Origin: Natronomonas gomsonensis | GTDB taxonomy: Archaea > Halobacteriota > Halobacteria > Halobacteriales > Haloarculaceae | NCBI RefSeq assembly: GCF_024300825.1 | Contig: NZ_CP101323.1 | Location: 806,001-870,000 of the forward strand | Reading direction: 5' to 3' | Length of the DNA: 64,000 nt | In this document: in pieces, positions 45,160 to 53,094 of the stretch | How the letters are laid out: the number at the start of each line of letters is the position of its first letter | Numbering within the stretch: the first letter of the stretch is position 1 | Program-made: the position numbers and the translations under genes | Notes under the pieces: generated by a model | What the model saw: the letters and a program-made list of their open reading frames with translations, nothing else | Database searches by the model: none | What the model was told of the DNA's origin: nothing

Positions 45160-46632
45160 ATGACGGATTCAGCCGATGGACCGACGCTCCGCGTGACGGT
45201 CTCCGAGGCCACAGACCGGGACGGTCTGGACGCCGTTTGCGACCGCGCCGAGCGAACCACGGTCATCGAAACCGGACCGACGGGCGCGCCGAACGGGCCT
45301 TACGCTTACGCCACAGTCGACGGTCGAACGGCGCTGTACGCCGCCGTCACCGACTCGACGCTCGAACGACTGCTCGACGCCTGCGAGGAGGGGTCGCTCC
45401 CGACGGCGGAAGCCGAGGCGGTCACCGACGGCGACGACCCACCGCGTCCGACCGAGGGCGCGCTGTCGGTCGGCACGCGTCGCGTCGTCGCCGGCTGTGG
45501 CTGGCACACCCCCACGACGGTCTCCGACCCTGTCGCTCCCGAGGTTCGTGCCGACCTCGAGAGTGCATTTGAGGCGGTCGAAGGAATCGGCCTGCTGGGA
45601 CGGGGGCGTGCCGACGCGGCCGCGGACGAACCGCTCGCCGAATCGTGGCGACGGATACGCGAAAGCGGCGACGACCCCGTTGTGGTCGTCAACACTGCCG
45701 ACGCCGACCCTGAGGCCCGCGGAGACCGACTGCTGGCTGCGGCCGCCGCAGGCCGACTCCACGATGCGGCACGGGCCGTCGCCGCCGTCGTCGGCGCAGA
45801 AGACGTTATCGTGTTGGCTCCTGCCGAAGACCCCCTCGTTTCCGAGCGCCTCGAAGACGCCGGCGAGTGGCACGTCGTCGCCACAGAAGACGACTTCCGA
45901 CTCGGCGAACCGACGATGGCGCTGGAGCGACTGGAGGGCAACGACCGAATCGAGGCGCGACGCCGCCCACCCGGCCCCGAGGAGTGGGGGCTGTACGGTC
46001 GGCCGACCGCCGTCCACACCCCGCGAACGCTGTTGCAGGCCGCCGAGTTGTGGCGAAATCCCGAGGCGTTCGACGCCGACGCCGCCGACCCCGGGACGCG
46101 TCTCGTCTCCGTCGGAGGGGACGTAGCCACCTCGGCGACCGTCGAGTTACAGACCGACGTGCCGCTGTCGAGGGCGCTTTCGGCGGTCGATTCGCCGGCT
46201 GACGCTCGCTTCACCGTCGGCGGCCGCTTCGGCGGCGTGACCCGTTCGCTGGACGTTCCCGTGGCTGCCCCCGCGTTGAGGGCCGCTGGGCTTGGGACCG
46301 AGGGCGTCGTCGAGGTGCTCGGTCCCGACCGCTGTATCGTCGCCAGCGTCGGCGAACGGGCGGCCTTCGCCCGCGAGGAGAACTGCGGCCGGTGTGTCCC
46401 CTGCCGGGAGGGGTCGAAACAACTCCACGAGGCGCTTCGGGCGGTGTACGACGGCGAGTTCGACGCCGCGGCGATTCGGGAGTTGAGTCGCGTGATGGCG
46501 ACGACGAGCCTCTGTGAGTTCGGCGAGACCGCCGCTCGCCCCGTCCGGACCGCACTAGAGGACTTCGAGGGCGAGTTCCGCGCCCACGCCGACGGCAGGT
46601 GTCCGGCCGGCGCCTGCGGGGGGATGCAATGA
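45160..46632 (+). CDS. NuoF-like subunit with degenerate FMN/NAD loops
   Basis: 490 residues. The C-terminal NuoF-type 4Fe-4S site is complete (Cys409, Cys412, Cys415 in 'ENCGRCVPCREGSK', Cys452 in 'TTSLCEFG'), and 'GLYGRPTAVHTPRTLLQAAELW' matches the conserved core. However, the FMN loop, usually rich in Gly (GRGGAGFP), reads GLLGRGRADAAADEP (144-158), and the GEETAL loop reads GEPTMALERLEG (249-260). NADH or FMN binding may therefore be lost or changed. The first ~115 residues resemble an NuoE-like thioredoxin fold without its 2Fe-2S cysteines. It overlaps the formate-dehydrogenase-like gene by 4 bp. Confidence 0.85.
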   Translation: MTDSADGPTLRVTVSEATDRDGLDAVCDRAERTTVIETGPTGAPNGPYAYATVDGRTALYAAVTDSTLERLLDACEEGSLPTAEAEAVTDGDDPPRPTEGALSVGTRRVVAGCGWHTPTTVSDPVAPEVRADLESAFEAVEGIGLLGRGRADAAADEPLAESWRRIRESGDDPVVVVNTADADPEARGDRLLAAAAAGRLHDAARAVAAVVGAEDVIVLAPAEDPLVSERLEDAGEWHVVATEDDFRLGEPTMALERLEGNDRIEARRRPPGPEEWGLYGRPTAVHTPRTLLQAAELWRNPEAFDADAADPGTRLVSVGGDVATSATVELQTDVPLSRALSAVDSPADARFTVGGRFGGVTRSLDVPVAAPALRAAGLGTEGVVEVLGPDRCIVASVGERAAFAREENCGRCVPCREGSKQLHEALRAVYDGEFDAAAIRELSRVMATTSLCEFGETAARPVRTALEDFEGEFRAHADGRCPAGACGGMQ

Positions 46633-49600
46633 GCGCCGACGAACCCGGACCGACGCCAGGGATACCGGACATCGAGGACCCCCGACCGTCGACGCCGCTG
46701 ACCGAGGACTTCCGGACCGGAACCGCAAACGACCCGCCGAGGCAGGGGTTCGAAACCGACAGCGCCGCGACGCTCACCGTCGACGGCGAGACGGTGGTCG
46801 TCCCGCCCGAATCGACGCTTCTGGACGCCGTCGAAGCGGCCGGCGAGGAGGTCCCGGCGCTGTGTCACTACGACCGCGACACCGACGCAGGCGAGGAAAT
46901 CGGCCCGCGCTCGACGTGTCGTACCTGCGTCGTCGAGTCCGACGGCGACCTCGTCGCCGCCTGCTCGACGCCCGCAGAGGACGGTCTCTCGGTCGAGACC
47001 ACGGCTCCGGACGCCGAGGAGGCACGAAGCGTCAATCTCGATTTGGTGCTGTCGAATCACAACCTTAGATGTACGACCTGCGGGAAGAACGGCCGCTGTG
47101 AACTGCAGGACGCCTCAATCGAGGCGGGCGTCTCCCACCCCCGCTACGGCGTCTTCGACGAACGCGGCGAGTACGAACCGCTGGACGCCTCCTCACCCAT
47201 CAACATCGACCGCAACAAGTGCATCCTCTGTAACCGCTGTGTCGAGGCCTGCAACGACGTGCAGGTCGAGGGCGTCCTCCGCGTGGAGGGCACCGGCGAG
47301 GACACCCGAATCGGCTTCCAGACCGGCGCCGAGACGATGGCCGACTCGACGTGTGTCTCCTGTGGCCACTGCGCGACGGTGTGTCCGACCGGCAGCCTCG
47401 TCGAGGAGGGACTGGTCGACGCGACGACGCTCCCGCTGCCGGGATTCTCCCAGCGGAACTCCGTTGGCGAGGTGCTGGAGCGGGACGAGGAGGATGCCCC
47501 GACTCGCGGAACGGAAGCCGAACCGGGCGTCGACGGCTTCATGCAGCGTGCAAAGCGGCAGGCGACCGACAGCACAAAGGACCTTCGCGCTCGCGTGATG
47601 AAGTTCGGCGAACACCTCGCCGAGGATATGGCGGCGACGGTCCTCTCGGAGGGACTGCTCTTCGGTATCGCAAAGCGCGTCGGCGACGCCCGACTGAAAC
47701 GCGTCGACGAAACGGAGACGACCTGCGGTTACTGTGCCGTCGGCTGTCGGTTCGACGTGTACTCGAAGGACGACTCGATACTCGGGGTCCGGGCGACAGA
47801 CTCCGAGGCCGCTCCCGCAAACGACTTCTCGACCTGTGTCAAGGGGAAGTTCGGCTACGGCTTCGTCGAACGGGATGACCGCCTGACGACGCCGCTGATT
47901 CGGGAAGACGGCGAACTTCGGGAGGCGTCGTGGGAAGAGGCCCTCGACCGCGTGGCATCGGAACTGGGCGACATCCGTGAGACGGGCGGCCCCGACTCCG
48001 TCGCGGCGTTTGCCTCCTCGAAGTGCACCAACGAGGACGACTACCTCCTCCAGAAGTTCGCCCGGACGGTACTGGAGACGCCGAACGTCGACAACTGCGC
48101 GCGACTGTGTCACTCTTCGACTGTCGCGGCGCTGCTCCAGACGGTCGGCTACGGCGCGATGTCCAACAGCATCGAGGACGTGGCCAACGCCGACGCCTAC
48201 CTACTTTCGGGGACGAACACGACCGAATCCCACCCCGTACTGGCGACGAAAATCAAGCGGAACGTCCGGGACGGCGCCGACCTCGTCGTCGTCGACCCCC
48301 GGAAAGTCGACATCGCCGAACACGCAGACCAGTACCTCCGCTCGACCCCCGGCTACGACGTGGCGTGGCTCAACGGAATGGCCCGCTACATCATCGAAGA
48401 GGACCTCTACGACGCCGAGTTCGTCGCGGAGAACGTCCACGACTTCGAGGCGCTCCGGGAGAAGGTCGATCCCTTCACACCCGAGGAAGTCCAGCGGCTG
48501 GCGGGCATCGCTCCCGACGAACTGAAGCGGGCCGCCGAAACCATCGCCGAGGCCGAATCCGTCGTCTTCGGGTGGGCGATGGGACTCACTCAACACAGCC
48601 ACGGGACGAACAACGTGCTCGCGATGGCGAACTTCGCGCTGTTGACCGGCAACGTCGGCAAACCCAACGCCGGCCTCTCGCCGTTCCGCGGCCACAACAA
48701 CGTCCAGGGCGGAGGCGGCGACATGGGGACGCTGCCGAACAAACTGCCGGGCTACGGCGACGTGACTGACCCCGAGACGGTCGACCGCTACGAGGCCGAG
48801 TGGGGCGTCCGCCCGCCCGAAGAAATCGGGCTGAAGGTCACCGAGACCTTCGAGGCCATCCACGACGGTGACGTACGTGGCCTGTTCGTGATGGGCGAGA
48901 ACCCGGCGCTGTCGGAACCCGACATCCGACACGCCGAGAGCGCCTTGGAGGAACTGGAGTTCCTCGCCGTGGTCGACATCTTCGAGACCGAAACCACCGA
49001 CCACGCCGACGTGGTGTTGCCGGCCGCCTCCTTCGCCGAGAAGTCGGGGACGTTCACCAACACCGAGCGCCGGGTTCAGAAGGTCAATCCCGCCGTCGAC
49101 CCGCCCGGTGAGGCCCGCCCCGACTGGCGTATCGTCCAGTCGCTGGCCAACCGGATGGGCGCGAACTGGAACTACGACGACCCCACCGAAATCATGGACG
49201 AAATCGCCCGCGTCGCACCCATTTACGGCGGCATCAGTCACGACCGACTCGAAGACGAGGGCGGCCTCCAGTGGCCGTGTAGAGACAGCGAGGACCCCGG
49301 AACGAAGTTCCTCTACGCCGACGGGTTCAACTTCGAAGACGGGACGGCACGATTCGTCCCCGCCGACATGGGCGAACCCGGCGAACTCCCCAGCGAGGAG
49401 TTCCCCCTGACGCTGACGACGGGGCGCGTGCTGTATCACTTCCATACGGGGACGCTCACCCGCCGTGTCGACGCGCTGACCGACCACGTCGGCGAGAGTT
49501 TCGTCGAAATCAACCCCGAGACGGCGCGTCGACTCGGCGTCACCGACGGCGAGACAGTCCGCGTCGAGTCCGAACGCGGTGACATCGAGGTCCGGGCGTG

Positions 49601-49787
49601 GGTAACGGACCGACCCGGCGACGGCGTCGTCTTCGTCCCGATGCACTTCGCCGACGGCGCGGCGAACGTCCTCACCGGCGAGCGCTACGACCCCACGAGC
49701 GGCATCCCCGAGTACAAGGTCGGGAGCGTCCGCGTGACGCCGCTCGGGAGCGACGGCGAGAGCGCGACGGCCTCCACCGATGACTGA
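46629..49787 (+). CDS. Formate-dehydrogenase-like catalytic subunit (Mo/W-bisPGD)
   Basis: 1052 residues. Domains: N-terminal NuoG-like 2Fe-2S (Cys79, 97, 100, 112), a His/Cys 4Fe-4S (His144, Cys148, 151, 157), a double 4Fe-4S ferredoxin (Cys198-208 and 242-252), a helical linker, then the formate dehydrogenase family 4Fe-4S (Cys366, 369, 373, 403) and the molybdopterin domain. At the Sec position of FdhF there is Cys494 (CARLCHSSTVA), with no selenocysteine. 'GHNNVQGGGGDMGTLPN' and the C-terminal 'LTLTTGRVLYHFHTGTLTRR' are family hallmarks. Likely a cytoplasmic, NAD- or ferredoxin-linked formate oxidase or CO2 reductase. Confidence 0.92.
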   Translation: MSADEPGPTPGIPDIEDPRPSTPLTEDFRTGTANDPPRQGFETDSAATLTVDGETVVVPPESTLLDAVEAAGEEVPALCHYDRDTDAGEEIGPRSTCRTCVVESDGDLVAACSTPAEDGLSVETTAPDAEEARSVNLDLVLSNHNLRCTTCGKNGRCELQDASIEAGVSHPRYGVFDERGEYEPLDASSPINIDRNKCILCNRCVEACNDVQVEGVLRVEGTGEDTRIGFQTGAETMADSTCVSCGHCATVCPTGSLVEEGLVDATTLPLPGFSQRNSVGEVLERDEEDAPTRGTEAEPGVDGFMQRAKRQATDSTKDLRARVMKFGEHLAEDMAATVLSEGLLFGIAKRVGDARLKRVDETETTCGYCAVGCRFDVYSKDDSILGVRATDSEAAPANDFSTCVKGKFGYGFVERDDRLTTPLIREDGELREASWEEALDRVASELGDIRETGGPDSVAAFASSKCTNEDDYLLQKFARTVLETPNVDNCARLCHSSTVAALLQTVGYGAMSNSIEDVANADAYLLSGTNTTESHPVLATKIKRNVRDGADLVVVDPRKVDIAEHADQYLRSTPGYDVAWLNGMARYIIEEDLYDAEFVAENVHDFEALREKVDPFTPEEVQRLAGIAPDELKRAAETIAEAESVVFGWAMGLTQHSHGTNNVLAMANFALLTGNVGKPNAGLSPFRGHNNVQGGGGDMGTLPNKLPGYGDVTDPETVDRYEAEWGVRPPEEIGLKVTETFEAIHDGDVRGLFVMGENPALSEPDIRHAESALEELEFLAVVDIFETETTDHADVVLPAASFAEKSGTFTNTERRVQKVNPAVDPPGEARPDWRIVQSLANRMGANWNYDDPTEIMDEIARVAPIYGGISHDRLEDEGGLQWPCRDSEDPGTKFLYADGFNFEDGTARFVPADMGEPGELPSEEFPLTLTTGRVLYHFHTGTLTRRVDALTDHVGESFVEINPETARRLGVTDGETVRVESERGDIEVRAWVTDRPGDGVVFVPMHFADGAANVLTGERYDPTSGIPEYKVGSVRVTPLGSDGESATASTDD

Positions 49788-50394
49788 CGAGCGTACCGGC
49801 GTCGTCGTCGCCGGCGGTCGCTCAGTGCGGTTCGGGGCCCGCGACAAGACGGTCGCCGACCTCGCCGGAAAGCCGTTGATTCGTCACGCCGCCGAGGGAC
49901 TCCTCGAAGCGACCGACCACCTCGTCGTCAACTGCCGGGCCGACCAGCGGGCGGCAATCGCCGAGGCGCTGTCGGGACTGGACCCGACGTTCGCCATCGA
50001 CGGGGAACCCGACAGGGGGCCGGTCGGCGGCATCGAAACGGGGCTGAGAGCCGTCGAGACGCCCTACGCGGCCGTCGCCGCCGCCGACATGCCGCTGCTC
50101 GATTCCGGCCTCTTCGAGTATCTCTTCGAGCGTGCAGCGGGCCACGACGCCGCCGTCCCGCGGCCCGGCGACTGGTTCGAGCCGCTGCACGCCGTCTACC
50201 GGCCCGAACCGATGGCCGACGCCTGTGGGGCCGCCCTCGAAGAGGAGGACACCCGAATCATCGAACCGCTGTTTTCGCTGGACCACGTCGTCGTCGAGCG
50301 AAGCGACCTCACCGCCAACGGCAGTCTCGACAGTTTCGAGAGCGTCGACACGCCCGACGATTTGCAGTGGGCCGCCGAGCGACTCCACGAGTAG
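49780..50394 (+). CDS. mobA: Molybdenum cofactor guanylyltransferase
   Basis: 204 residues. 'GVVVAGGRSVRFGARDKTVADLAGKPLIRHAAEGL' is the nucleotide-binding LAGG-type loop with Arg and Lys, and 'AAADMPLLDSGLFEYL' carries the metal-binding Asp. It adds GMP to molybdopterin to make the guanine dinucleotide cofactor used by enzymes like the formate-dehydrogenase-like protein. It overlaps that gene by 8 bp, so cofactor maturation is co-expressed with the enzyme. Confidence 0.93.
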   Translation: MTDERTGVVVAGGRSVRFGARDKTVADLAGKPLIRHAAEGLLEATDHLVVNCRADQRAAIAEALSGLDPTFAIDGEPDRGPVGGIETGLRAVETPYAAVAAADMPLLDSGLFEYLFERAAGHDAAVPRPGDWFEPLHAVYRPEPMADACGAALEEEDTRIIEPLFSLDHVVVERSDLTANGSLDSFESVDTPDDLQWAAERLHE

Positions 50395-51815: not shown

Positions 51816-52547
51816 TCAGGCCGTTACCACATCGACGACCCGTCGGAGGTCCATCCGGCCAAGAACGACCCGGTCGACCCGATGGTGTTCGAGCACGTCG
51901 GCAGCGATTTCTCGGGCAGTCGTCTCCAGCGACTCGTCGTCGACCATGTTCAAAAGCGGGACGACGCGGGCACCATCCGGGACTCCCTTTAGCCCGCCGT
52001 CGTCGTGCGTCAGGACGGTCACGATGTCGTTCGGATGTATCTCATCGCCGGTATCGAGGCCGGTCAGTTCGGCGACGCGTTCGGGGCGGTGGACGCGCTC
52101 GTCGGTCAGCGGTTCGCCGACCGCGCGGACGCTCGCGACGGGGACGACCACGTCGGCGGTGGCCGGTATCTGGGGTTCGTCGTCGGCCGGCGCTTTGAAC
52201 CACCGGCGTCGCGCTCCGTCCGCCTTGATGAGTATCGGCACGTCCGTCGCCTCGGCCAGTTTCTCGACCGTCTCCGTCTCATAGCCGAGATACCGCTCTC
52301 GGTCGCCGTCGCGTCCCGGGACGACGCCGAGCGGCCAGTCGCCGGGGTCGGCAGCCTCGATGGCCCCGACCGGGTCGTCGGTGACGACGAGACGACCCAC
52401 GTGGCCCTCGAACGGCGGGATGCGAACCGTCGCGGTGACGACGGCCTGGTCGAGAGCGGCCGAAAGCGCATACAGCGTCGACTTCTTGCCGCCGGCACCG
52501 ACGACGGCAACCGCACCCTCCGGGTCGAACGCCTCGATGAGGTCCAT
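51816..52547 (-). CDS. yqeC: YqeC-like putative selenium-dependent hydroxylase accessory protein
   Basis: 243 residues. The N-terminal 'GAVAVVGAGGKKSTLYALSAAL' is the modified Walker A of the YqeC family, with 'VVTATVRIPPFEG', 'LIKADGARRRWFKAPADDEPQIPATADVVVPVASVRAVGEPL' (K-A-D-G-A-R) and 'VVLGRMD' typical. In bacteria YqeC is found with selenium-dependent molybdenum hydroxylases, or with their maturation genes. Here it lies near mobA and a formate-dehydrogenase-like gene without Sec. Its role in this organism is inference. The start at 52547 is preferred over a much longer open frame. Confidence 0.88.
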   Translation of the reverse strand: MDLIEAFDPEGAVAVVGAGGKKSTLYALSAALDQAVVTATVRIPPFEGHVGRLVVTDDPVGAIEAADPGDWPLGVVPGRDGDRERYLGYETETVEKLAEATDVPILIKADGARRRWFKAPADDEPQIPATADVVVPVASVRAVGEPLTDERVHRPERVAELTGLDTGDEIHPNDIVTVLTHDDGGLKGVPDGARVVPLLNMVDDESLETTAREIAADVLEHHRVDRVVLGRMDLRRVVDVVTA

Positions 52548-52626
52548 ACCGGACCGACGGCATCCTGGCACAAAACGGCTCTGCCGCTTCGGGTGTTTAT
52601 TTGTGGTCGGCGGTCCGCCTTGGCGT

Positions 52627-53094
52627 ATGGTCTTGGATACGATTATGTACACCCTCCACACGGCCTTCGCGTCGCTGTGGGCTGGGTCAGTCCTGTTCGT
52701 CGTCGCCGCCGTCCATCCGCTCGCGATGAACGGGGATATCTCCCCCGAGAACTTCGGCAGTATCGTCTCGAAACTCCAGTGGGTGACGCGACTCAGTGTC
52801 CTCGTGACGTTCCTCACGGGCGGCCACCTCGCGGGAACGCTGTACTCCGTCGAATCGCTGACCGGAAGCGGGAGCGGCCACCTCGTCCTCACGATGCTGG
52901 CGCTGTGGCTGGCGCTCGCTGCGGTCGTCGAAATCGGCAGCGCTCGCGCACAGCGCGGTATCGAGTCGGGGAAAATCCGCGAACCGGCCCGCGACGCCCG
53001 CCCGTTCTACCTCGCCGCCGCCGTCCTCGCCGCCGGTCTGCTCGTCGTCGCCGGTCTCTTGGGTGTGGCCAGCCGATACGGCCTCCCCTTCTAG
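52627..53094 (+). CDS. Four-helix membrane protein (CopD-like)
   Basis: 155 residues with four membrane helices. 'IMYTLHTAFASLWAGSVLFVVAAVHPLA' has a His and a W-x-G-S pattern seen in CopD/DUF2269-like transporters and heme proteins. Other His residues sit at helix ends ('GGHLAGT'). Function is unknown. It is divergent from yqeC (79 bp) and convergent with the FAH-family gene, overlapping 4 bp. Confidence 0.7.
   Translation: MVLDTIMYTLHTAFASLWAGSVLFVVAAVHPLAMNGDISPENFGSIVSKLQWVTRLSVLVTFLTGGHLAGTLYSVESLTGSGSGHLVLTMLALWLALAAVVEIGSARAQRGIESGKIREPARDARPFYLAAAVLAAGLLVVAGLLGVASRYGLPF

Follow-up and report, generated by a model that had tools for sequence, protein, structure and literature searches.

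Does the diaphorase-like subunit encoded beside a formate dehydrogenase (FDH) gene at this locus still pass electrons to NAD? The gene, here called beta, starts with ATG at 45160 and ends with TGA at 46630-46632 of the window (the whole stretch of DNA analysed, 64,000 nucleotides). It encodes 490 aa, and automatic annotation names this kind of subunit after NADH-ubiquinone oxidoreductase. The original prediction was that the protein keeps the cluster ligands Cys409, 412, 415 and 452, has lost the FMN/NADH loops and lacks 2Fe-2S cysteines in its N-terminal part, and the translation bears out all three points. The loops read GLLGRGRADAAADEP and GEPTMALERLEG, as had been quoted, with altered ligand positions. 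All four cluster ligands are present among the cysteines of the protein (27, 75, 113, 392, 409, 412, 415, 452, 481 and 486). The N-terminal domain has C27 and C75 as its sole cysteines, and prolines (P40 and P44) stand in place of the two cysteines conserved in HydB-type N-domains. The features are listed in Table 1.

Table 1. Features of the beta gene and its neighbours (window coordinates)
Feature	Coordinates	Strand
beta subunit: diaphorase homologue of HydB/NuoF type, 490 aa, lacking the canonical FMN/NAD loops	45160..46632	+
N-terminal thioredoxin-like domain, residues 1-105; GCxGxC of HydB replaced by GPTGAP	45160..45474	+
Former Gly-rich FMN loop, residues 147-163; GRGGxGFPTGxKW replaced by GRGRADAAADEPLAESW, 4-residue insertion, Lys lost	45598..45648	+
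Former NADEGDPGAFMDR FMN loop, residues 175-190; Asn178 retained, other positions mostly altered	45682..45729	+
Former GEETAL / PPF / INNVET region, residues 245-296, replaced by GEPTMALERLEGNDRIEARRRPPGPEEWGLYGRPTAVHTPRT	45892..46047	+
Equivalent of GGPSGG FMN loop, residues 354-359, replaced by GGRFGG	46219..46236	+
Cys392, HydB-type zinc-hinge ligand	46333..46335	+
[4Fe-4S] ligands C409, C412, C415	46384..46404	+
[4Fe-4S] ligand C452	46513..46515	+
Other zinc-site ligands His476, Cys481, Cys486	46585..46617	+
alpha subunit: NuoG/HydA-like N-terminus (2Fe-2S, His-Cys3 4Fe-4S, two 4Fe-4S) fused to FDH catalytic part (4Fe-4S, RLCH active site)	46629..49787	+
MobA-like molybdenum cofactor guanylyltransferase; start overlaps alpha end	49780..50394	+
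YqeC (PF19842), molybdenum-enzyme accessory family; recurrent neighbour of beta-alpha pair	51816..52892	-

The fold of beta is predicted to be retained (pLDDT 92; Z 46.8 to an NfnABC beta subunit). The Pfam NADH_4Fe-4S domain scores 78.1 against a cut-off of 23.5; Complex1_51K, the FMN domain, scores 28.4, below its cut-off of 31.2, and gave 31.7 in a separate whole-genome search. The best sequence and fold matches are the HydB, StnB and NfnB beta subunits (7t2r, 7p5h, 8oh5, 9bov), with which beta has in common the N-terminal thioredoxin-like domain, the SLBB domain, the four-helix bundle, the [4Fe-4S] site and a Cys3His zinc site. In contrast with them, beta is without the canonical FMN/NAD site, the N-terminal 2Fe-2S ligands, the C-terminal 2x[4Fe-4S] domain and the HydC partner. 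The protein ends 4 residues past C486 and so has no counterpart of the C-terminal ferredoxin domain of HydB.

The zinc ligands place beta in a family. The hinge of HydB is liganded by three Cys and one His (PMC9499530, PMC8880783), and among 72 haloarchaeal homologues of beta C392, H476 and C481 are present in every sequence and C486 in 71, the exception being one truncated sequence. Nqo1 has no Cys3His zinc site (PMC9499530), the FdsB examined also has none, and one aligned bacterial NuoF has three of the four ligands. The complete Cys3His zinc (or 2Fe-2S) site marks beta as a trimmed HydB-type subunit rather than NuoF or FdsB. The description of beta as NuoF-like therefore holds for the core fold and the N3-type [4Fe-4S] ligands (CxxCxxC...C), which are as in NuoF/Nqo1 of complex I, but not for the type. 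The Gly-rich FMN loop and NADH contacts of NuoF/Nqo1 are lost, NuoE is missing, and the NuoF model score is 97.6, far under the cut-off of 558.65. FdsB of NAD-dependent formate dehydrogenase (6tg9, 6vw7) resembles beta in its NuoG-FdhA fusion alpha partner, cluster-less N-domain and beta-then-alpha gene order; it differs in retaining FMN/NAD and in pairing with FdsG, a NuoE-like subunit. Since FdsB ordinarily has an N-terminal thioredoxin-like domain with no cluster (PMC7171172), this trait is not odd in beta. A whole-genome search found no second NuoF-type protein in the window's own genome. There is no NuoE/HydC partner there either: the sole PF01257 hit reads as a CbiX-like protein that carries a 2Fe-2S tail.

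FMN/NAD contact residues were taken from PMC8880783 and PMC7171172 and counted in the 72 non-redundant haloarchaeal homologues and in 30 canonical sequences. The lysine that contacts FMN (Lys75 of Tt Nqo1) has an equivalent in 30/30 canonical sequences and in 0/72 haloarchaeal ones. Neither adenine-stacking Phe is found in any haloarchaeal homologue (0/72 and 0/72), whereas canonical relatives retain them. An intact Gly-rich FMN loop is likewise absent (0/72): at position 150 of the window protein, Gly has been replaced by Arg, Trp or Phe in 72/72, and Gly152 is Asp in 71/72. All 72 have Phe or Leu in place of the Ser of GGPSGG, and NNVET has become HTPRT, nearly fixed in the family. Of the six FMN/NAD side chains listed in PMC8880783 for HydB of A. 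mobile, a single one (Asn178) is retained in the window protein, compared with 3-6 in canonical relatives. This comparison across haloarchaeal homologues agrees with the predicted loss, and on the evidence of these residues the haloarchaeal beta has very probably lost canonical FMN/NAD binding.

We considered whether the FMN loops are specially hypervariable and dropped the idea. Positions are kept at 15/46 in the FMN loops and at 22/101 in the other conserved core, so the loops are not less conserved. As conserved positions outside the loops have changed just as much, the case for FMN/NAD loss stands on the ligand positions. Haloarchaeal composition drift or salt adaptation alone was ruled out as the cause because HydB encoded beside NiFe-hydrogenase genes in other haloarchaea retains its FMN loops. 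That HydB (L153, L154), which has FMN loops and a ferredoxin domain, adjoins HydA- and NiFe-hydrogenase-like genes in a HydABCSL-like arrangement.

The altered site is not decaying. The beta gene has a dN/dS of ~0.19, indicating purifying selection, with lower values in the motif region. Compared with the N. gomsonensis protein, to which beta is 89% identical, residues 246-300 are the most constrained stretch (dN 0.008, the lowest; dS 0.094). The replacement residues D152, H286, T287, R289 and F/L357 are nearly invariant in the 72 homologues. Replacements as fixed as the originals, together with the lowest dN at 246-300, indicate that the site has been rebuilt. A frameshift or pseudogene was ruled out by the open frame, the clade-wide motif and the low dN/dS.

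An alternative is that a flavin or F420 still binds in the re-shaped pocket, where NAD(P) or F420 would be reduced. Fixed replacement residues would be expected of such a working site. Additionally, Asn178 is retained in 67/72 homologues and Glu or Asp is present at 181 in 66/72, so an altered flavin mode is possible, and GExT and RPPxP are present in most haloarchaeal homologues. However, the Lys and the adenine-stacking Phe residues are lost throughout, bulky residues occupy the flavin-contacting Gly and Ser positions and the NuoE/HydC partner is missing. We regard this alternative as improbable. Residual flavin binding is unlikely on these residues, and the site losses point to a beta without bound flavin.

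How widespread is the family? We sampled 392 genomes of the order and found a beta match in 161. In 14 of these the match was weak (E worse than 1e-35), and those examined (L017/L018, which are L154/L153 in context) are HydB with intact loops; the window's beta family is thus present in about 147/392 sampled genomes. Outside the order, three genomes of a phylum-wide sample matched, weakly. Weak genome matches to residues 375-462 (0.3-kb stretches in ORFs of ~350-650 aa), were taken as zinc alcohol dehydrogenases with a common CGxCxPCR motif and not as relatives. The architecture had been expected to be uncommon among formate dehydrogenases; it is common in haloarchaea. In a quick tree the haloarchaeal family forms a single clade with support of 100 and a long stem. 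Altered residues common to the whole clade reflect neither chance nor sequencing error. One strongly reduced beta paralogue (L024 / L163) has ~19 residues missing, including the RPPxP motif.

The partner of beta had been predicted to be a formate-dehydrogenase-like subunit, and this is well founded. The alpha start overlaps the beta stop (ATGA), which implies translational coupling, and alpha scores 848.8 against TIGR01591 (metal-dependent FDH alpha), over the curated cut-off of 666.25. Each of the 18 full-length alphas examined, which cover both types of beta described below, retains its full set of cluster ligands and the RLCH active site with its catalytic Cys-His. The MobA-like protein is a probable maturation factor. 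FdhD (PF02634) was found in 0/146 genomes of the order, including the window's own, and in 8/14 controls, three of them archaea. M. extorquens needs FdhD for its formate dehydrogenase (PMC13197769); FdhD is a maturation factor of characterised members and no part of the enzyme. Its absence makes cofactor maturation in the usual way less certain and leaves the assignment of alpha standing. YqeC and MobA are frequent at haloarchaeal FDH loci, without FdhD, and are a possible alternative route of FDH maturation. In some species (loci L161 and L162, of G027 and G028, L039 and L046) the NuoG-like alpha N-terminus is a gene apart from the catalytic part; G027 and G028 also have a second FdhA-like gene downstream. 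In Haladaptatus halobius (L040, 10001-13164) an intact type B beta adjoins an alpha cut to ~101 codons.

Among PDB entries, alpha matches ForC (YjgC) best. ForCE of Bacillus is, as here, a two-subunit FDH with a NuoG-like alpha N-terminus, and in B. subtilis this related FDH is able to reduce menaquinone with its ForE subunit (PMC8808070). The complex studied here could similarly reduce menaquinone through an unrecognised membrane partner. ForE, however, is unrelated to beta; ForC has Gln in place of the active-site His, a change absent from the alphas here; and alpha, MobA and YqeC are the only conserved partners seen near the loci. We therefore consider a menaquinone-linked enzyme very unlikely.

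The 72 homologues fall into two types. Type A, that of the window, has 54 members, of which 50 have all four cluster cysteines; C415G alone occurs in the other 4, in two separate tree lineages. Type B has 18 members, all with both C409S and C415G, and is one clade nested within type A. MobA, YqeC and AOR genes lie near both. Betaine and one-carbon neighbours (FolD, PabA/B, RidA, BCCT transporters, SHMT, dimethylglycine-oxidase-like) were found at 13/17 type B loci and 1/54 type A loci, counts that ignore shared ancestry; they are also seen by NCBI annotation beside type B in Haloarcula marismortui and Haladaptatus. This suggests that the type B formate dehydrogenase takes part in betaine and one-carbon oxidation.

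Judged by its ligands, the beta [4Fe-4S] cluster of type B has probably been lost or changed, so that beta may serve as a scaffold while electrons may exit from alpha. This bears on the possibility that beta is in general a structural or assembly subunit and that one of the alpha clusters, the 2Fe-2S or the His-Cys3 4Fe-4S, passes electrons straight to the acceptor. The fixed C409S and C415G changes of type B, with the predicted fold the same as in type A and the zinc site and intact alpha kept, are consistent with it, as is the loss of Cys415 alone in 4 further sequences. Four cysteines in 50/54 type A sequences would nevertheless be needless in a purely structural part, and for beta as a whole we think a structural role possible but doubtful. 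The purely structural relay that had been proposed thus fits type B best, where beta may be mainly structural, and does not suit the type A protein of the window.

Our preferred reading, to which we give a probability of about 0.55, is that the pair forms a cytoplasmic two-subunit Mo/W FDH in which beta is a flavin-less descendant of HydB that delivers electrons to a one-electron carrier. The ancestor of beta would have been a HydB-type NAD/flavin subunit, which would have lost its canonical FMN and NAD(H) sites, N-terminal 2Fe-2S ligands, C-terminal ferredoxin domain and HydC/NuoE partner while retaining the [4Fe-4S] site and the structural Cys3His zinc site. We infer a path through the clusters of both subunits: formate electrons would pass from Mo/W-bisPGD through the alpha clusters to the beta [4Fe-4S], which would hand them singly to a soluble carrier, most likely a haloarchaeal 2Fe-2S ferredoxin. 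Because the flavin and NAD sites are lost, electrons probably go to an acceptor other than NAD, as the original prediction had proposed. With formate at about -420 mV and the halobacterial 2Fe-2S ferredoxin at about -345 mV, electron transfer from the one to the other is feasible, and in haloarchaeal cells this ferredoxin works with the 2-oxoacid oxidoreductases. The window's own genome has genes for POR/KOR-type ferredoxin enzymes and for complex I (49-kDa) and no NuoE. The beta-alpha locus has no linked ferredoxin gene; ferredoxin-family AOR genes flank 14/71 loci. Ferredoxin is a plausible acceptor, with the chances about even. Three complex-I 49-kDa (NuoD-type) ORFs are present near 0.64, 1.27 and 1.41 Mb of C1 in this genome, against the single NuoF-type protein.

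Literature searches found no published report of this FMN/NAD-site loss, and the haloarchaeal cytoplasmic FDHs treated in PMC5437934 and PMC6176080 are presented in those papers as single catalytic subunits. Beta is a real, conserved variant of known diaphorase-type subunits, absent from the literature found. A HydB-type module may have been stripped stepwise, first of its flavin/NAD site and then of [4Fe-4S] ligands, and kept fixed in FDH, an NAD-linked or bifurcating unit becoming a ferredoxin-docking or architectural subunit, with subfamily B for betaine and one-carbon oxidation; we hold this history to be evenly balanced. Taken at face value, annotation under the NADH-ubiquinone oxidoreductase name would make formate oxidation NAD-linked in more than a third of the sampled haloarchaeal genomes. 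If flavin is absent, haloarchaeal one-carbon and betaine oxidation would instead feed another pool, probably ferredoxin, and then the NuoEFG-less complex I. The family also offers a natural cofactor-loss series, with 4, 3 and 2 cluster cysteines, useful for dissecting diaphorase modules and for re-wiring formate dehydrogenases to other acceptors.
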